Of a stretch of 15,005 bases of DNA, positions 1,244 through 14,103 are shown in pieces. The translations under genes and the position numbers were made by a program. The notes beneath the pieces were generated by a model. That model had not been told where the DNA came from and did no database searches. It was given only the letters and a program-made list of their open reading frames with translations. Origin of the DNA: Clostridia bacterium (GTDB lineage Bacteria > Bacillota_E > SLMV01 > PUMD01); assembly GCA_003562655.1 (NCBI GenBank), contig PWUC01000206.1, positions 1 through 15,005 of the forward strand, written 5' to 3'. Numbering within the stretch: position 1 is the stretch's first letter; each line of letters starts with the position of its first letter.

Positions 1244-3817
1244 TCAGCATTCCGTGTAGCCACAGGCCGCGCAGGACACACATCCCTCCTGGTAGATCAC
1301 CGCGTTGACACCACAGGCGGGACAGAGGGCATACTTCTGGTCTCCGGTGGGCTCCCCGCCCGACGCCCGGGGCGGATTCGGCTTTCTGGCAGCCAGGTCG
1401 GCCAGGTCCAACTGGGTCAGGTCGTCACCGCCGGCATCATCGTCGTCTGCCAGATACGAATCTGACTCGATGAACTCCCCAATGAACTGACCGATGGCAT
1501 CGGGAACCGACCGCACCCGGTTGGGGCCAAATCCAACGGAGCGGCTCCCCCCGATCCCGATCAGCTGATCCGCAACGACTCGAGGATCCACACCGCACCG
1601 AAAAGCCAGGGAAATCAGGCGCGCAATGGCCTCTGTGAAGGCCGCGACATCACTGCCCGCCTTGCCGATCAGGGCGAAGAGCTCGAAGGGATGGGTTCTG
1701 TGCATGTTGAGAGTCAGGAAGAGATTGCCCATGGGCGTCGCCTTGCGGACCGTGATCCCGCGGAGCCTGCTGGTGCGGGAGACCGGCCTTACGGTCCCCC
1801 ATTCAACACCGGACCTGGCGGGCACCTCCTCTTCCTTCTTCCCGTCCTCCTCCCCGCCCACCACCAGGACCTGCCCCTCGCGGCTGCCCACACGGTAGAC
1901 CGTCAGCCCCTTGCATCCCATCTCATAGGCCTGCCTGAAGGCCAGCGATATGTCTTCCCTGGAGGTCTCCTGCGGGAAGTTGATGGTCTTGCTGACGGCA
2001 TTGTCCGTGTGCGTTTGAAAGGCCGCCTGCATTTTGATATGCCAGCGGGGACTGATGTCAAGGGCGGTCACAAAGACCCTTCTAACATGCTCAGGAACAT
2101 CTCGCCGGGATTGCAGAGATTCGCCACCCGCAAGGCTGGTCATCAGTTCCTCCGAATGGAAGCCGCCGGCCCTGGCCACGTCCTCGAACACGCCGTTGAC
2201 CTCAACGAGCTTCTCGCCGTCCAGCACGTGACGCGTGAAGGCGATGCTAAACAGCGGCTCCACTCCACTACTGGTGCCTCCAATTATGCTTATGGTGCCG
2301 GTGGGAGCGATGGTCGTGGTGGTGGCATTGCGCAGCGGGAAGTTCCTCTCGGCATAGACACTCTTCTCGTAGTCGGGAAACACGCCCCGGTCCCCGGCAA
2401 GGATGCGGCTGGCCTTCTTGGACTCGTCATCGATGAAACCCATGACCTCCAGGGCCAACGAGACAGCCTCCTCGCTGTCGTAGGGAATGCCCAGTTTCAG
2501 AAGCATCTCGGCCCATCCCATGACCCCGAGGCCGATCTTTCTGCTGGCTCGGGTCATCGTACCGATTTCCTCCACCGGATACCTGTTGGCATCGATGACA
2601 TTGTCGAGGAAATGGACGGCGAGATGAACGGTCTTCGCGAGGGCATCCCACCTTATCTGATCCCTGAACTCCGGGAGCTGATCCGGGCTGTCGTACCACC
2701 CCGTGTTTTCCACGAAGGCACTCAGGTTCACGCTGCCGAGATTGCAGCTCTCGTAGGGAAGCAGGGGCTGCTCACCGCAGGGGTTGGTGCTCTCAACCAT
2801 GCCCACCTCCGGGGTGGGATTGTCGGCATTGATGCGATCAAGAAAGACCACCCCGGGTTCGCCGTTCTTCCAGGCCATGTCGGAAAGCAGGTCGAAGATC
2901 TCCTGGGCTGCAATCTCCGTCACCACACTGTCGTCCCGGGGGTTCACCAGGGGATATGAGTCGCCCCGCTCCAGGGCATCGATGAAGGCATCGGTTATGC
3001 CCACCGAAAGGTTGAAGTTTGTTATCGCCTCATTATCCTGCTTGCAGGTGATGAACTCCCTGATGTCAGGATGGTCCACCCGCAGAATGCCCATGTTGGC
3101 GCCTCGCCTGGTTCCGCCCTGTTTCACCGCCTCCGTTGCCGAGTTGAACACCTTCAGAAAGGAGACCGGACCGCTGGCAATTCCCCCGGTGGTGCGGACA
3201 ACATCATTCTTGGGGCGCAGCCGGGTGAAGCTGAAGCCGGTTCCTCCTCCTGATTTATGTATGAGTGCTGCGTTCTTGATGGATTCAAAGATGCTCTCCA
3301 TGCTGTCCTCGATCGGCAGGACAAAACAGGCAGAGAGCTGCTGCAGTTCCCTCCCGGCATTCATCAGGGTGGGAGAGTTGGGCACGAACTCCCTGCTGCT
3401 GATCATCCGGAAGAAAGCCTCCTGCAGCTCCCTGATCTGGGCCCACCGCTCCCGGACCGCCCGGCACACCCCGTCAAAACTGACCTTCATCCGACCCTCC
3501 CTCGCCAGGCGAGAATGGGCCCGCTTCAGGGTCTGCAGATCAAAGAATGTCAGGGACGCCTCATCCATGCTCCCGGATTCAGCTTCGGCGCCCGCCGCCA
3601 CCGTGGCGCCGCCGTCGGGATCATATATGTCCGGCCAGTACAGCACATCAATGGCGGCCACATTCCTGGCCACCCGCTCCAACATCTGGTGCGGGGTCTC
3701 GGTGAAATTCCCCTCACTGTCCCTGGCCAGATACCGTTTCCTCAACACGGTCAGGGCATTCTCGGTCAATCCAAGATCGTCGCCATACTCCATGTTCTCA
3801 AAACTCACTCCTCTCAA
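1244..3817 (-). CDS. nrdJ: Adenosylcobalamin-dependent (class II) ribonucleoside-diphosphate reductase
   Basis: Reduces ribonucleotides to deoxyribonucleotides using vitamin B12 to make the thiyl radical, so it works with or without oxygen. The 857-residue protein has the class II signature: first redox cysteine in LSACFVLP (C164), the glycine-rich HKSGGGTGFSF near 188-197, the catalytic NPCGEQ (C347, with N345 and E349), C358 in ESCNLGSVNL, and APTGTISIIGGTSSGVEP near 504-521. The C-terminus carries the swinging cysteine pairs CPACG and CVSCAACGYTEC (832-857). An acidic linker precedes this tail (DDDDAGGDD). The TTG start overlaps the nrdR stop as TTGA, which suggests translational coupling; GTG four codons in or ATG at codon 9 are alternatives. 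The length fits the long NrdJ form with its extra C-terminal domain. Confidence 0.97.
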   Translation of the reverse strand: MRGVSFENMEYGDDLGLTENALTVLRKRYLARDSEGNFTETPHQMLERVARNVAAIDVLYWPDIYDPDGGATVAAGAEAESGSMDEASLTFFDLQTLKRAHSRLAREGRMKVSFDGVCRAVRERWAQIRELQEAFFRMISSREFVPNSPTLMNAGRELQQLSACFVLPIEDSMESIFESIKNAALIHKSGGGTGFSFTRLRPKNDVVRTTGGIASGPVSFLKVFNSATEAVKQGGTRRGANMGILRVDHPDIREFITCKQDNEAITNFNLSVGITDAFIDALERGDSYPLVNPRDDSVVTEIAAQEIFDLLSDMAWKNGEPGVVFLDRINADNPTPEVGMVESTNPCGEQPLLPYESCNLGSVNLSAFVENTGWYDSPDQLPEFRDQIRWDALAKTVHLAVHFLDNVIDANRYPVEEIGTMTRASRKIGLGVMGWAEMLLKLGIPYDSEEAVSLALEVMGFIDDESKKASRILAGDRGVFPDYEKSVYAERNFPLRNATTTTIAPTGTISIIGGTSSGVEPLFSIAFTRHVLDGEKLVEVNGVFEDVARAGGFHSEELMTSLAGGESLQSRRDVPEHVRRVFVTALDISPRWHIKMQAAFQTHTDNAVSKTINFPQETSREDISLAFRQAYEMGCKGLTVYRVGSREGQVLVVGGEEDGKKEEEVPARSGVEWGTVRPVSRTSRLRGITVRKATPMGNLFLTLNMHRTHPFELFALIGKAGSDVAAFTEAIARLISLAFRCGVDPRVVADQLIGIGGSRSVGFGPNRVRSVPDAIGQFIGEFIESDSYLADDDDAGGDDLTQLDLADLAARKPNPPRASGGEPTGDQKYALCPACGVNAVIYQEGCVSCAACGYTEC

Positions 3818-4293
3818 CGCCTCCCTTCCTCATCTCTGTCTCTGTCTCTGCGCAGCTGGGCCACCTCCCGGTGAAAGGCCTCCACGTCAGCAAACAGCCT
3901 GTACACCGAGGCAAAACGAACATAGGCCACCTCGTCCAGCGTCCGCAGCCTGTCCATGACCCTCTCCCCTACCTCCCTTGAGGTGACCTCCCCGGCGGTA
4001 TCCGCCCTGATCTGATACTCAACATCATTGACCAGGCGCTGGAGTTCATCCATGCTGACGGGCCGCTTCTCGCAGGCCGTGACCACACCTCTGAGAACCT
4101 TGTCGCGCTGAAACATCTCACGCCTGCCATCCCTCTTCTTCACCATGAGAGGCCCCGCGTCAATGCGCTCATAGGTTGTGAACCGTCCCTTGCAGTGAGG
4201 ACACTCCCGCCGGCGGCGCACACAGCGATTCTCCTCCGCCGGTCGTGAGTCCAACACCCGGCTGCCCAACTCGCCACAGTGAGGGCATCTCAC
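3814..4293 (-). CDS. nrdR: NrdR transcriptional repressor of ribonucleotide reductase genes
   Basis: NrdR senses ATP/dATP through an ATP-cone and represses nrd promoters by binding paired NrdR boxes. The 159-residue protein has the N-terminal zinc ribbon with C3, C6, C31 and C34 (MRCPHCGELGSRVLDSRP and ECPHCKGRFTTYER), followed by the ATP-cone starting MVKKRDGRREMFQRDKVLRG (about 50-69). Length matches the family (about 150-160 residues). It is the first gene of a two-gene unit with nrdJ, with overlapping stop and start codons. A sigma70-like promoter and two box-like sites lie just upstream, so autoregulation together with nrdJ is likely. The C-terminal tail RRDRDRDEEGRR is charged and probably disordered. 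Confidence 0.97.
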   Translation of the reverse strand: MRCPHCGELGSRVLDSRPAEENRCVRRRRECPHCKGRFTTYERIDAGPLMVKKRDGRREMFQRDKVLRGVVTACEKRPVSMDELQRLVNDVEYQIRADTAGEVTSREVGERVMDRLRTLDEVAYVRFASVYRLFADVEAFHREVAQLRRDRDRDEEGRR

Positions 4294-4311
4294 CCGAACT
4301 CAGTCCTCTCA

Positions 4312-4327
4312 CCACAAGATATGGGAT
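4312..4327. promoter_or_regulatory. Candidate NrdR box 2
   Basis: CCACAAGATATGGGAT matches the core of the published consensus aCaCwAtATaTwGtgt at about 10 of 16 positions, including C-C-A-ATAT-G. It lies between promoter and nrdR start, 33 bp (about three helical turns) from the other box. Established pairs are usually about 31-32 bp apart. Confidence 0.5.
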
Positions 4328-4344
4328 GATCACAGGGTAATCTA

Positions 4345-4360
4345 ACACTATATGTTGCGG
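4345..4360. promoter_or_regulatory. Candidate NrdR box 1
   Basis: ACACTATATGTTGCGG fits the NrdR consensus over its first 13 positions with one mismatch. It covers the -10 element of the nrdR promoter, where a repressor would block RNA polymerase. Confidence 0.65.
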
Positions 4361-4374
4361 GTGCGCAAGGTCAG
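4347..4374 (-). promoter_or_regulatory. Promoter of nrdR-nrdJ
   Basis: On the minus strand, -35 CTGACC (4369-4374) and -10 TATAGT (4347-4352) are separated by 16 bp. This leaves a leader of roughly 45 nt before the nrdR ATG. The -10 lies inside NrdR box 1. Confidence 0.55.
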
Positions 4375-4407
4375 TTAGAAACTCTAGCCAGGAGTGAGAC
4401 AGGACAG

Positions 4408-5199
4408 TCAGGGGTGGTTTCGACAGGACTCCTCTATCCTCACCGGCAGGCGACCTTCCAACCAGCAACCCCGCCGGGGATCCGACATGATTCGATACGC
4501 ATAGATCTCGACACCCGCCAGGGCCGCGTCCCACAGGGCTCGGGCAAAGGCAGGGTCAACCTCCGCATTGGCAGAGAGCGAAACTGCATCGGGCCGGCAT
4601 ACGGCGAAGACCACGGCGCATCGGTCGCCTTTCGCAGCCAGGGCACAGAGATCTCGCAGATGGCGTCTTCCCCGCTCCGTCGGGGCGTCCGGAAACCGGG
4701 CCTCGGGTCCCCAGGAGGCCGAAACCGTGAGGGTCACCGATTTGACCTCAACCCAGCAGACCTCGGGACCCGAGTTCCGCCCCAGCTGATAATCGAACCG
4801 GCTCGCACCTGCAGACACCTCCCTGCGCATCCGGGTTAGTCCCCAAAACTCCGGAAGCCTGGCCTCCTGCAGCGATCGCGAAAAGACCCGCATCGGCAGC
4901 CGTGAATCCACCAGACTCCATCGGGGCTCCGCCCCATATGGCAGAGCCGCCATGATCAGATCCCAGGACGTCCTGCGGGTGGGCGACCTCCGCTCAGCAA
5001 GGATCACCCTGTTGCCCCGGACCAACAGCTGCGCCAGGCGTCCAGAATTTGCAACGTGCACCTGTTCAGCCTGGCCCGCCACCTCGACCTCGGCGACAAA
5101 GCGGTTGACCCGCCGCAGGAACAGGCCGCAGACCAGCTCCGCGTCGAGGACAACGCCTGAACCCGGTCCCAGGGGGCGGATGCAGTGAATGGGCCGCAT
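4408..5199 (-). CDS. sfsA: SfsA family protein (sugar fermentation stimulation protein homolog)
   Basis: SfsA in E. coli was named for stimulating maltose metabolism and binds DNA; the family has a PD-(D/E)XK nuclease-like core, and its role outside E. coli is not settled. The 263-residue product shows the family core: FVAEVEVAGQAEQVHVANSGR near 34-54, CWVEVKSVTL (E151, K153 of the nuclease-like ExK), the highly typical FPDAPTERGRRHL (169-181), and the C-terminal DPAFARALWDAALAGVEIYAY. The ATG at 5199 was chosen because a GGAG site precedes it and it starts 2 nt after the flavin reductase stop; a longer frame reaching 5325 overlaps that gene and its extra residues look non-homologous. The tight spacing implies one transcript with the flavin reductase. 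Length is slightly above the usual 230-240. Confidence 0.93.
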   Translation of the reverse strand: MRPIHCIRPLGPGSGVVLDAELVCGLFLRRVNRFVAEVEVAGQAEQVHVANSGRLAQLLVRGNRVILAERRSPTRRTSWDLIMAALPYGAEPRWSLVDSRLPMRVFSRSLQEARLPEFWGLTRMRREVSAGASRFDYQLGRNSGPEVCWVEVKSVTLTVSASWGPEARFPDAPTERGRRHLRDLCALAAKGDRCAVVFAVCRPDAVSLSANAEVDPAFARALWDAALAGVEIYAYRIMSDPRRGCWLEGRLPVRIEESCRNHP

Positions 5200-10630: not shown

Positions 10631-11122
10631 CTACAGCTGATCCTCAGCGAAGAGCTCCTCCACAGGGAGCTTGTCCCTCGGCGCACCCTCATCACGGGCA
10701 TACCCGATGGCCATCCCCATGACCACCTCCATGTCAGCGGCCACACCGATCATCTCGGAGATGACGTCGCGGTCCCAGTATCCCAGCCATATGGTGCCCA
10801 GGCCCCGCTGCACTGCAGCCATCTCCATCTGGGTCATCGAAATCAGGACGTCGGCCAGTGCGCCGCGTTTCCCCCTGTCAGTGGCAACACCGAAGATCAG
10901 CAGACCGGCCCCGGCAACGAAATCCTGCATGGAGGCCCTCTGCACTGTCTCCTTGATCCTGGCGGGGTCCTCGATGATGACAAACCGCCGGGCCTGCCGG
11001 TTGCTCGAGGTCGCTGCCCACCGGGCCGCCTCCATCAGATGATATCTGTCATCACAGGAGACGGCCTGCCCGGTGAAGCTCCGCACGCTGCGGCGTCTGC
11101 GGCAGAGATCAACAACATCCAT
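10631..11122 (-). CDS. Small nitroreductase-family FMN oxidoreductase
   Basis: FMN-dependent NAD(P)H oxidoreductase of the nitroreductase superfamily; the natural substrate is unknown. The 163-residue protein starts with the typical phosphate-binding segment RRRSVRSFTGQ (9-19), followed by LMEAARWAATSSNRQARRFVII, which contacts FMN, and QMEMAAVQRGLGTIWLGYWD with a GIGTCWLG-like motif. The C-terminal half ends VVMGMAIGYARDEGAPRDKLPVEELF, common in this family. It is on the short side, as in the compact subgroup that dimerises to build the active site. The ATG at 11122 is preceded by GGGTGGGAT. A near-perfect palindrome lies about 40-65 bp upstream. The gene lies between the peroxiredoxin and the peptidase, all on one strand. 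Confidence 0.9.
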   Translation of the reverse strand: MDVVDLCRRRRSVRSFTGQAVSCDDRYHLMEAARWAATSSNRQARRFVIIEDPARIKETVQRASMQDFVAGAGLLIFGVATDRGKRGALADVLISMTQMEMAAVQRGLGTIWLGYWDRDVISEMIGVAADMEVVMGMAIGYARDEGAPRDKLPVEELFAEDQL

Positions 11123-11336: not shown

Positions 11337-11963
11337 CTATATCTGTCCCACCATCTCCCAATCCGTGCTCAGGCCCGGTTCGCCCGGCCGCCACCCGGCC
11401 GGTGCACCCAGCCCGGTGTCCTCGGCAAACTGAACGGCCTGTATGACCCGGATCAGCTCCTCGACGTTCCGCCCCACCGGGCCGGGATACTTGCAGAAAT
11501 GCACGACATCCCCCGCCGGAGATACGATGACAGTCGTCCGGGTGGCAAAGCCCGTCTCAGGATTTAGAGCGCCGTAACAGGCGGATATCTGCCGGGTGGG
11601 ATCAGAAAGAAGGGGATACTGCACCTGTCGGGCCGACGGTGAAATCTCTGCAAAGATCTTGTGGGAGAAGACACTGTCAGTGCTGATTCCCAGTATCTCC
11701 GCGTCCAGTTCGACAAATTCATGGTAATGGGCAGCCACGGCTGCCAGTTCCGTGGGTCAGACGAAGGTGAAGTCGGCGGCGTAGAAAAAGAGAACCACCC
11801 ACAGATCCCGGAGGTCAGACAGCCGCATCCGGATCCTGTCCCCCCGGTAGTATCCCTCGGCCTCGAAGTCAGGGGCAGCTACGCCGAGAACGATCGGTTC
11901 GGTGACGAAGCACGCCTCTTCGGGCAGCACAGCTTCGGGCACAGCTAACATCTCCTCTCTCAT
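11337..11963 (-). CDS. prxU: Peroxiredoxin with in-frame UGA at the peroxidatic position (probable selenoprotein)
   Basis: AhpC/TSA-type peroxiredoxin reducing hydroperoxides. One frame of 208 codons runs from 11963 to the TAG at 11337, broken only by TGA at 11759-11757. Before it the protein reads LFFYAADFTFV, after it PTELAAVAAHYHEF; the family motif is FYPxDFTFVCPTE, so UGA falls exactly on the catalytic cysteine (residue 69). The rest is intact: GISTDSVFSHKIF, YPLLSDPTRQIS, YPGPVGRNVEELIR and GWRPGE. The usual resolving-cysteine motif VCPAxW reads APAGW here, so that cysteine is absent; C residues in SACYG and HFCKYPG remain. A selenocysteine peroxiredoxin is known from Eubacterium acidaminophilum. 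Start may instead be GTG at 11942, after GAGAGGAG. The alternative is a nonsense mutation of a cysteine codon, less likely given the exact position and hairpin. Confidence 0.87.
11730..11756 (-). promoter_or_regulatory. Candidate bacterial SECIS element in prxU
   Basis: Read on the minus strand after the UGA, an 11-nt linker leads to a perfect 6-bp stem GGCAGC/GCUGCC with loop CGUG (11739-11736). The apical loop starts 17 nt after the UGA, with G at loop position 2. Both fit the published bacterial SECIS model (16-37 nt, G within the first two loop bases). A competing stem CCACGG/CCGUGG is possible. Confidence 0.6.
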
Positions 11964-12057: not shown

Positions 12058-12657
12058 ATGCAGGACAACCTCCTGGAGGTCACACTGATTCGCAATGCCA
12101 GCATCGCGGCACCCGAAACCGGGGGGTCCGCCGACATGCTGCTGGTCGGTGATCGGATCGTGAGCATCGGGAAGATTGGATCTGTGCCCCCTGAACTGCT
12201 GGGCCACGTGGCGGTCATCGATCTGGACGGCGATTACCTGGTGCCGGGGTTCATTGACGTACACGTATACGTTGTCGTAGGCGGAGGCGAGGGGGGACCG
12301 GCCACCCGCACGCCGGAGATCACCCTGTCGACCCTGACCCTGGCGGGTGTGACCACCGTCGTGGGAGTGCTGGGAACAGACGCGACCACCAGGGGACTGC
12401 CCTCTCTTGTCGCCAAGGCCCGGGGGCTGCAGCACGAGGGGTTTACCACCCTCATCTACACCGGTGCGTACCAGGTGCCGACCCCGACCCTCACGTCTGT
12501 AAAGGACGACATCCGCCTTTTGACAGAGCCTCCCAGCTAGGCTCGCCCGACCTGAGTCACCTGGCCTCGGAATGCCGCCCGGGAGGAATGCTCGGGGGCA
12601 AACCGGGCCTCTTGCACATCTCACGTGGTAGGCGGACAGGGCGGCCTCGCACCCCTC
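12058..12657 (+). pseudogene. iadA: Isoaspartyl dipeptidase, 5' fragment, frameshifted
   Basis: IadA hydrolyses beta-aspartyl dipeptides released from damaged proteins. GGGAGG lies 6 nt before the ATG at 12058. Residues 1-160 follow the family: PGFIDVHVYVVVGGGEGGPATRTPEITLS, LAGVTTVVGVLGTD and YTGAYQVPTPTLT. The frame stops at 12540 against about 390 residues expected. Family sequence continues in a second frame (LSHLASECRPGGMLGGKPGLLHI, about 12549-12620) after loss of roughly 20 residues including the VIGVGEIAISDHRS region, then shifts again to HVVGGQGGLAPLL. The metal motif normally DxHVHI reads DVHVYV, so a metal-ligand histidine has become tyrosine. The gene is dead. Downstream it is interrupted by reverse-transcriptase sequence. 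Confidence 0.85.
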
Positions 12658-12870
12658 TTAACGCCAGGACCGCTGTCTTCTTGACGATCTGGATCGCGAG
12701 CTTCAATCTCGTTGTCATCGTTTCGTGCGTTATGCAGATGATGTGAACGTGTACGTCAAAAGCAGACCCGCGGGGGAGCGGGTTCTTGAACACCTCGATG
12801 AACATCAAGGATGAACGACGCAGCTGCGGGTTCATCGCCCATGCCCTCTCGCTGACCAGGACGAGGTCGT
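12658..12870 (+). pseudogene. Decayed group II intron reverse-transcriptase fragment
   Basis: From 12680 one frame reads LDDLDRELQSRCHRFVRYADD and then VNVYVKSRPAGERVLEHLDE up to a TGA at 12812. This is the catalytic block of group II intron (LtrA-like) reverse transcriptases, with the YADD active site. Just before, TPGPLS in another frame resembles a deleted version of TPQGGPLSPLL. After the stop, QLRVHRPCPLADQ may be the eroded KLRVNxxKSAV segment. About 70 codons of a roughly 420-residue protein remain, with indels. No ribozyme domain V or 5' GUGYG end was recognised. It lies between two iadA pieces, so it probably marks an old intron insertion. Confidence 0.75.
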
Positions 12871-12957
12871 CGGGACATGCTCTGCCGTCCTCAATGGCCC
12901 GGTAGGTAAACGAAGCCGATGTGTCCTACGGCCCGGCCTCGCTGGCCAAGATCTGAC

Positions 12958-13079
12958 TCTCTCACATTCCTGCGGGAGGAGGGCGCGGATCCGGGCCTCA
13001 TCACAATGAGTTCTGACGGCAACGGCAGTCTTCCCCGGTTCGACGAGAAGCGAAACCTCCTGGAGCCTGGGGTAAGCAG
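12958..13079 (+). pseudogene. iadA: Isoaspartyl dipeptidase, 3' fragment
   Basis: The frame reads LTFLREEGADPGLITMSSDG, then NGSLPRFDEKRNLLEPGVS. SSDGNGSxPxFD is a hallmark of the C-terminal half of IadA and contains the catalytic aspartate. It continues the same gene as the 12058-12657 fragment after the reverse-transcriptase insert. Similarity ends near 13079, where a long inverted repeat begins; the last 80 or so residues of the family are missing. Confidence 0.8.
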
Positions 13080-13147
13080 TCCCAGATCCCCCCTGCTCAC
13101 CGTGCAGGACCTGGCGAGCAGGGGGGTGTCCCTGGCACCCCCAGGCT
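13064..13147 (+). repeat. Nested inverted repeat (84-nt potential hairpin)
   Basis: Outer arms AGCCTGGGG (13064-13072) and CCCCAGGCT (13139-13147); middle CCAG (13082-13085) and CTGG (13132-13135); inner 11-bp arms CCCCCCTGCTC (13088-13098) and GAGCAGGGGGG (13116-13126) with a 17-nt loop. It sits between the iadA remnant and the toxin-antitoxin promoter. It could be a terminator, a structured RNA or a mobile-element relic. Confidence 0.6.
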
Positions 13148-13176: not shown

Positions 13177-13237
13177 CTTACATGAGAGGTAGCTTTGCCA
13201 GCAGAAATCCCTTGACACCATGGAGGGGGTGGTACCC

Positions 13238-13675
13238 ATGAGGCGCAAGAACCTGAATTCGCTATGTGAGGCAAGCGGGGTGTCGCTCGTATACCTTTAT
13301 GGATCTCGGGCAGCCGAGGGTGCGGCGTTTATCAAAGGCAGTGACGAAACCGACCCGGGCGGTGATATCCTGGCTGACCTGGACGTGGGCGTGGTCATGC
13401 AGGCGCCCCTTCCCCCTGCATCAGAGAGACACAGACTCTACTCGTCTCTGAGCAACGGCATGCAGGATTGCTTCCGGAGTTTTCGGGTTGATCTCGTCTT
13501 TCTGCAGGAGCGCCATTCGGTGTTCCAGTATGAGGCTCTACAGGGAATCTGCATATACCAGTCCTCCGACGAGCAGCGCAGTGAGTACGAGATGATGGTG
13601 CTCCGCCGCGCCGCGGATTTTCGTCCAGTCTTGAACATGTACCTCAGGGAAATACTTGAGGAGGTCACACCATGA
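13238..13675 (+). CDS. mntA: MntA-like minimal nucleotidyltransferase antitoxin
   Basis: In type VII (HepT-MntA) systems the nucleotidyltransferase AMPylates a tyrosine of the HepT ribonuclease and silences it. This 145-residue protein has the fold's motifs: YLYGSRA (G22, S23), DLDVGVV (D47, D49) and the third carboxylate D85 in FRVDLVFL. The usual spacing is GSx10DxD; here 23 residues, rich in G/D/E, separate S23 from D47, so the loop is enlarged. The ATG at 13238 was chosen because GGAGGGGG ends 8 nt upstream; an ATG at 13220 lacks a site. Its stop overlaps the hepT start (ATGA), so the two are co-translated. Order antitoxin-toxin. Confidence 0.9.
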   Translation: MRRKNLNSLCEASGVSLVYLYGSRAAEGAAFIKGSDETDPGGDILADLDVGVVMQAPLPPASERHRLYSSLSNGMQDCFRSFRVDLVFLQERHSVFQYEALQGICIYQSSDEQRSEYEMMVLRRAADFRPVLNMYLREILEEVTP

Positions 13676-14103
13676 TCAACCGCACCCTGGTGGAAGAACG
13701 TCTCGTCCTGATGACGACCTACGTTCAGGAACTGAAGCAGCTCTCCGAGCTGCCCCGCGGGGAGTTCCTCGACGATGCCGTCAGGGTCGCCGCGGCCGAG
13801 AGTTTTCTAAGGCGGTCACTCGAGGCAGCCTTCGACATCGGTCGCCACATCCTCGCCAAGTCCGGTCATATCGATATGGCCGGCGAGTACAAAGCCATCG
13901 CCAGAGGTTTGATGAATCTCGGGGTCACAGATGGTGATCTCGGCAGAACACTGGTGCAAATGGCGGGCTACCGGAACCGGCTGGTACACATGTACGCCCA
14001 GGTCGCTGAGGAGGAACTGTACGACATTATCACCGTCCACCTCGGGGACATCCGCAGGTTCATTGTGCAGGTCCGAGACTTCATCTGCACATCGGGTGTG
14101 TGA
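13672..14103 (+). CDS. hepT: HepT-like HEPN ribonuclease toxin
   Basis: HEPN-domain toxin; in studied systems the dimer cleaves RNA, and MntA inactivates it by adding AMP to the motif tyrosine. The 143-residue helical protein carries the complete Rx4HxY motif: R101, H106 and Y108 in RNRLVHMY. Other family features are AAESFLRRSLEAAFDIGRHILA (41-62), the paired-helix core, and GEYKAIARGLMNLGV. GAGGAGG lies 8 nt before the ATG, inside the end of mntA. With an intact active site and target tyrosine, the toxin appears functional. It is the only clearly intact gene pair in the decayed segment 12.0-14.6 kb. Confidence 0.92.
   Translation: MINRTLVEERLVLMTTYVQELKQLSELPRGEFLDDAVRVAAAESFLRRSLEAAFDIGRHILAKSGHIDMAGEYKAIARGLMNLGVTDGDLGRTLVQMAGYRNRLVHMYAQVAEEELYDIITVHLGDIRRFIVQVRDFICTSGV

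Follow-up and report, generated by a model that had tools for sequence, protein, structure and literature searches.

The DNA analysed here, a stretch of 15,005 nt to which we refer as the window, carries on its minus strand a gene for an AhpC-type peroxiredoxin with an in-frame UGA as the catalytic codon, and comparison with related sequences makes it very probable that this is one intact, real selenoprotein gene whose product has selenocysteine (Sec) as the catalytic residue. The earlier note on this DNA had proposed a probable selenoprotein, and the proposal is supported by the presence of TGA at the same codon of an orthologue (L001), by purifying selection both before and after the TGA, and by a covarying SECIS hairpin. 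Decoding of the UGA as Sec is supported by comparative sequence evidence; the peroxidase activity and the reductant of the enzyme are predicted. The gene is of a kind already known, that of PrxU, and its sequence places it in a group outside the PrxU model.

The minus strand from 11963 to 11337 is a single frame of 208 codons followed by TAG, and its sole break is a TGA at codon 69. The description in the earlier note of one frame of 208 codons broken by one TGA is true of this strand; the coordinates given there were correct, but the strand was left unstated, and the gene lies on the complement, with no such protein in frame 1 of the plus strand at 11337..11963. The likelier start is GTG at codon 8 (11942) because a Shine-Dalgarno-like AGGAG, putatively functional, lies 9 nt upstream of it (11952..11956, minus strand) and because the L001 orthologue has ATG at this position with identical spacing. 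With this start, the coding sequence would extend over 11337..11942 (minus strand, stop codon TAG at 11337-11339) and encode 201 residues with Sec at 62. The UGA (11757..11759, minus strand; codon 62 of 201, or 69 of 208) is at the peroxidatic position, in the motif DFTFV-U-PTEL, and the window reads DFTFVUPTEL where cysteine relatives read DFTFVCPTE, which bears out the earlier placement of the TGA at the catalytic Cys of an FVCPTE motif. The gene has an in-frame TGA aligned to the Cys of its homologues, one of the criteria by which bacterial selenoproteins are recognised. The read-through protein has the AhpC-TSA domain (PF00578; 117.5 bits, cut-off 26) expected of an AhpC/Prx1-type peroxiredoxin, and the match, from residue 27 to residue 155 of 208, runs across the TGA. 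The split into 68 and 133 residues that had been predicted for gene callers is found in the list of open reading frames, as fragments at 11757-11963 and 11337-11738 (both on the minus strand).

Peroxiredoxins with Sec in a TxxU motif are treated as an established family in PMC13188914, PMC1088965, PMC1794560 and PMC2398784, a seleno-peroxiredoxin is listed for Clostridium sticklandii in PMC3091704, and the precedent of PrxU (Sohling et al. 2001) is cited in PMC13188914, PMC8533274 and PMC9312934. PrxU of Peptoclostridium (Eubacterium) acidaminophilum (NZ_CP007453.1, L204) is, like the window protein, AhpC-type, with UGA at the peroxidatic site, a SECIS element at the same distance and a C-terminal resolving position that lacks Cys (EVAPSGW in PrxU). 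Unlike the window protein, to which it is 39% identical, PrxU keeps the Pro of PxxxTxxU, and it extends further at both ends, with Sec at 84 of 240 and additional residues in the C-terminal tail. The appeal to PrxU in the earlier note therefore holds for the kind of protein but not for the family as NCBI models it: against the PrxU model NF040737 (NCBIfam, cut-off 270 bits), the window protein scores 168.3 bits, about 100 bits short. The reference PrxU reaches 408 bits and nine PrxU-like proteins (L030, L037, L038, L039, L045, L052, L056, P0052 and P0192) 314-378 bits, whereas the window-like L025, L026, L028, L115, L118, L120, L124, L205 and P0022, which are Sec or W-called forms, score 155-191 bits and P0047, a Cys form near the window protein, 140 bits; many of the proteins were scanned as matched stretches and not whole.

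In a quickly built ML tree with 93 rows, the window protein falls into a starred set of 11 rows (10 Sec and 1 Cys), apart from a starred PrxU-like set of 38 rows. The 93 rows remained when 151 were thinned at 80% identity; the 151 consisted of 123 AhpC-type loci, 5 of the 33 Prx6-type loci, and 23 Cys proteins picked by hand from 60 in the database (resolving Cys absent from 17 and present in 6), 13 of which survived the thinning. Of the 17 Sec rows read in the window's group, L025, L118-L120, L122, L124 and L205 are off the tree; identity assigns them to the group, as does the model score of L025, L118, L120, L124 and L205. The genome of L001 (G001) carries both kinds, each as one gene (L025 with 162.5 bits and L056 with 342.6 bits). 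In G011, two genes for Sec-peroxiredoxins of this group lie side by side (L028), and their products are 43-44% identical to the window protein. PrxU is the best NCBIfam model for the window protein, and the two share Sec, the position of the SECIS element and the missing resolving Cys, all of which would fit an orthologue of PrxU proper in place of a member of a separate group; the gap in model score (140-191 bits for window-like and 314-378 bits for PrxU-like proteins), the separate starred sets and the coexistence of both kinds in G001 argue for the separate group, and we consider orthology to PrxU proper improbable.

Near the window protein, both by identity (48% over 181 residues) and by model score, is a peroxiredoxin from a plasmid of Cytobacillus spongiae (WP_225003809.1, L205), which likewise has TGA at the site, a SECIS element, no resolving Cys and no Pro. 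The group is not unknown to annotators, because one CDS in the record of this plasmid spans the TGA. Typical 2-Cys AhpC/Prx1 proteins, such as PDB 5y63 chain A (E = 1.1e-37), share with the window protein the sequence family and the TxxC/U motif, but have Cys in place of Sec and a C-terminal CP cysteine that is missing from the window protein. The 1-Cys motif of the Prx6 type, FTPVCTTE, is not present, the window protein reading FTFVUPTE.

The UGA might in addition act as a selenium switch, with mostly a 61-residue stub made when selenium is low and the full enzyme when it is present, such that the gene would report selenium status. Sec decoding generally has this property, with low selenium favouring the termination product and selenium favouring the full-length protein; nothing in the window points to it specifically, and the N-terminal piece alone covers just part of the AhpC-TSA domain, so that we regard a switch as very unlikely.

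A genome scan returned two loci, of which L001 was used and L002, a match of 30 residues, was left out. L001 (PXCI01000131.1) belongs to the MAG Clostridia bacterium T3Sed10_282, which may come from soda-lake sediment, the label 'T3Sed10' being found also in soda-lake metagenome papers. Its orthologue is 82% identical to the window protein from codon 8 and has TGA at the same codon; the earlier note had regarded the codon of close homologues as telling, and here it is TGA and not TGC. Comparison of the window gene with L001 by the Nei-Gojobori method gave dN = 0.114 and dS = 1.02 upstream of the UGA (ratio 0.111), and dN = 0.097 and dS = 0.85 downstream of it (ratio 0.115). Synonymous sites in this pair are near saturation, yet the protein is constrained on both sides of the TGA. 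A motif scan of loci L025-L192 identified 128 sites (not de-duplicated), of which 70 have TGA, 41 TGC and 17 TGT, with no other codon; TGA occupies the catalytic codon in 66 distinct AhpC-type genes, including that of the window.

The caution in the earlier note that the window holds pseudogenes was justified for one neighbour. An amidohydrolase-like gene at 12058-13137 (plus strand), located by tblastn with the intact L001 protein, looks broken: the homologue in L001 is one open frame of 389 codons (3754-4923, minus strand), and the tblastn match in the window is broken up into three blocks that occupy two frames; between the second block and the third, 337 nt leave 61 residues without a match. 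This pattern is what decay looks like in the window, and the peroxiredoxin gene does not resemble it. A nonsense mutation of the catalytic Cys codon, which would make the peroxiredoxin a pseudogene or an error of this strain like its broken neighbour, is contradicted by the sharing of the TGA with L001 at dS 0.85-1.02, by the dN/dS of 0.115 downstream of the TGA, and by the occurrence of TGA at this codon in the 66 genes. We reject the pseudogene reading as highly improbable, and a recent Cys-to-stop change is disfavoured because purifying selection acts on both sides of the TGA and because the SECIS hairpin that follows it covaries.

Elsewhere around the gene, a nitroreductase-family gene (PF00881, 74.7 bits) lies downstream on the same strand (10631..11122, minus), and a nitroreductase gene is also found downstream in L001 (7780-8361), after a longer gap. 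At 13220-14103 (plus strand), a nucleotidyltransferase gene (PF18765) is followed by one for a HepT-like RNase (PF01934), with overlapping ends; the two resemble a toxin-antitoxin pair of the MntA/HepT type. A search with Rfam at gathering thresholds yielded no match anywhere in the window, and ARAGORN found no tRNA in it.

The hairpin, GGCAGC-CGUG-GCUGCC (11730..11745, minus strand), lies within the coding sequence at nt 15-30 counted from the U of the UGA. Nucleotides 15-20 pair with nucleotides 25-30, giving 6 bp around a CGUG loop; the structure begins 11 nt after the TGA, and the loop is 17 nt past the codon. PMC13188914 gives as rules for bacterial SECIS elements a loop of 3-9 nt, a stem of 4-16 bp, a G in the first two loop positions, a distance from UGA to loop of 16-37 nt and a minimum free energy of at most -7.5, and the window hairpin conforms to each of these (a 4-nt loop with G as its second base, a stem of 6 bp, a distance of 17 nt and -13.1 kcal/mol). 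Single-sequence folding of the 45-nt stretch that yields this energy gave a z-score of only -2.08, and 8 of 200 shuffled sequences folded equally well.

Comparison across genes shows that the hairpin mostly accompanies the TGA. At least 5 of the 6 pairs are formed in 51 of the 64 distinct AhpC-type TGA sequences vs. 2 of the 57 Cys sequences, and an NGUN loop is present in 53 of 64 vs. 0 of 57; 13 of the 64 TGA sequences have no hairpin at that register. An earlier, smaller count had given 20 of 22 TGA sequences vs. 2 of 31 Cys sequences. The set of sites comprised 156 after the removal of three duplicates from 159; no site was matched in 11 loci (L090-L093, L120, L122, L124, L185, L189, L190 and L192), of which L120, L122 and L124 were read later and have TGA, and the other eight are outside all counts. 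Among 22 chosen aligned TGA sequences, 93.2% of cells pair, two-sided changes occur in five of the six pairs, and none of 500 shuffles scores as high; shifting the register by 1-3 columns gave a poorer result each time, and RNAalifold, unprompted, returned the same helix. When the 22 genes were recoded synonymously, pairing had a mean of 0.669 and a maximum of 0.758 (n = 1000), compared to the observed 0.894. Over the 12 codons that follow the UGA, 2 of 9.7 synonymous sites differ between the window and L001 (pS = 0.21), vs. 0.51 for all post-UGA codons, although these are small numbers. The prxU gene of P. acidaminophilum has a hairpin at the same place. A separate set of 15 Prx6-type TGA peroxiredoxins (L075-L089), with the motif DFTPVUTSE and once DFTPVUTTE, has the hairpin at the AhpC-type register in 1 of 14 distinct sequences and an NGUN loop in 0 of 14.

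The Sec machinery is present in G001, the genome with the closest orthologue: we identified tRNA-Sec (73 bits; called by ARAGORN as tRNA-SeC (TCA)), SelB (333 bits), SelD (375 bits), and SelA, which is split between the ends of two contigs, with one of its pieces next to selD. The selD gene of G001 (L017, G001:C126) has an in-frame TGA, and SelD of this genome is therefore probably a selenoprotein too. SelB exceeded the cut-off in each of ten additional genomes from the window's group, and the tRNA-Sec model matched in 11 of 11 genomes (these ten and G019) with 64.9-79.2 bits; its cut-off is unspecific, in that a tRNA-Ser of G001 also passes with 50.2 bits, and in that, among 14 control genomes, it matched Thermus composti as well as E. 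coli and M. jannaschii. In a wider set of 67 genomes, grouped by the peroxiredoxin matches listed, SelB was over the cut-off in 17 of 19 other genomes that carry a TGA gene of the AhpC type, in 14 of 15 that carry one of the Prx6 type, and in 26 of 33 for which the list shows no match interrupted by TGA, and co-occurrence with SelB was accordingly discarded as a control, as uninformative among relatives. G019 and G008, both genomes with a TGA gene, gave no SelB match at E = 1e-30. The hairpin, taken with the machinery of the relative, suggests that SelB carrying Sec-tRNA would bind just past the UGA, such that Sec would be inserted and termination avoided.

Database entries for this gene and its relatives take two forms. 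Of the 40 best database relatives (query excluded), 31 are 115-136 residues long, the window's own stub among them, and the other 9 are 195-246 residues long and have Trp at the catalytic site. W is found at this site in 35 of the 95 full-length database relatives in which the site was found (P0002, P0005, P0007-P0009, P0017 and P0022 among them), and the likeliest reading of such entries is that a TGA was translated when the genes were called under genetic code 4. Reading of UGA as tryptophan throughout by the host itself, to which these 35 entries might point, has a negligible probability and is rejected, as genes of the window ordinarily end in TGA (8 of the 11 others checked, the remaining 3 ending in TAG; all 11 match Pfam families and none has an internal TGA, which is partly by construction for table-11 ORFs) and the DNA-checked codon at the 128 sites is TGA, TGC or TGT and never TGG. 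For three named entries of the short form, comparison with DNA shows truncation at the Sec codon. P0172 from Thermosediminibacter litoriperuensis, P0073 from Desulforamulus hydrothermalis and P0055 from D. aeronauticus, all 133-136 residues long and recorded as short peroxiredoxin (AhpC) or AhpC/TSA-family proteins, are identical, past the initiator residue, to the post-TGA parts of L115, L118 and L117, respectively. The other named stubs compared, several Bacillus entries included, had no match among the loci examined.

Sec at the catalytic position goes together with the loss of the C-terminal resolving Cys. At the resolving position of typical 2-Cys enzymes (CPxxW), the window protein has APAGW, and PrxU itself has Ala. 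Among 123 distinct AhpC-type genes for which DNA was available, the resolving Cys is present in 57 of 57 Cys genes vs. 1 of 66 TGA genes. The one TGA gene that has it, L038 (EVCPSGW), is a useful comparison enzyme. Database proteins gave a less strict pattern, with the resolving Cys absent in 17 of 60 Cys proteins and present in 1 of 35 W-called proteins (P0192, PrxU-like). The association between Sec and the missing resolving Cys rests on few events on the tree, and an independent-pairs test on starred branches found 4 pairs (p = 1), too few events for the sign test to have power. In literature listings, mostly of titles, we recognised no title on a missing resolving Cys in bacterial Sec peroxiredoxins, and Sohling et al. 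2001 may well report it. Within the window's group, the resolving Cys is present in 0 of 17 Sec rows. A conserved N-terminal Cys as an alternative resolving residue, which the first database hits had suggested, was rejected, given that no cysteine column exceeds 5 of the 17 rows and that L120 is free of Cys from the in-frame stop that precedes it through to its end.

A second difference concerns the active site itself. PxxxTxxC is the peroxiredoxin motif, and the window protein has AxxxTxxU, with Thr and Sec kept and Pro replaced by Ala at residue 55 (201-residue numbering). The PxxxTxxU form is stated in PMC13188914. Within the window's group, the Pro is missing in 15 of the 17 Sec rows, the exceptions being L123 and L124, and, among the 123 distinct AhpC-type genes, it is missing in 12 of 66 TGA genes vs. 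0 of 57 Cys genes; in database rows, it is missing in 26 of 35 W-called proteins and in 1 of 60 Cys proteins (P0047, Alteribacter keqinensis). An alignment of 60 relatives shows Thr66 to be nearly invariant and Arg142 to be invariant (208-residue numbering); in peroxiredoxins, both residues have catalytic roles in the active site. In the predicted reaction, the selenolate would reduce peroxides with the aid of this Thr and Arg, and the resulting selenenic acid would be resolved by an outside thiol, such as thioredoxin or a small thiol. The window enzyme is thus most likely a 'one-Sec' peroxidase reduced by an external thiol, because the C-terminal resolving Cys is missing and there is no conserved cysteine column in the group.

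Taken together, these findings raise the serious, if still tentative, possibility of a second subfamily of AhpC-type Sec-peroxiredoxins, distinct from PrxU, that would work by a 'one-Sec' mechanism and would have lost the resolving Cys and, in most members read, the near-universal active-site Pro, with selenium letting the active site tolerate losses that would not be borne by a Cys enzyme; such a subfamily would occur widely in anaerobic Bacillota and in some Bacillaceae, and would be under-recorded because many members are stored as stubs cut at the UGA. The findings point to misannotation of the window gene and also of relatives in cultured species, whose public entries are fragments of 133-136 residues. 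The combination of Sec with a missing resolving Cys, together with the loss of the Pro in the window's group, provides a testable idea of what benefit selenium may bring to a peroxiredoxin.
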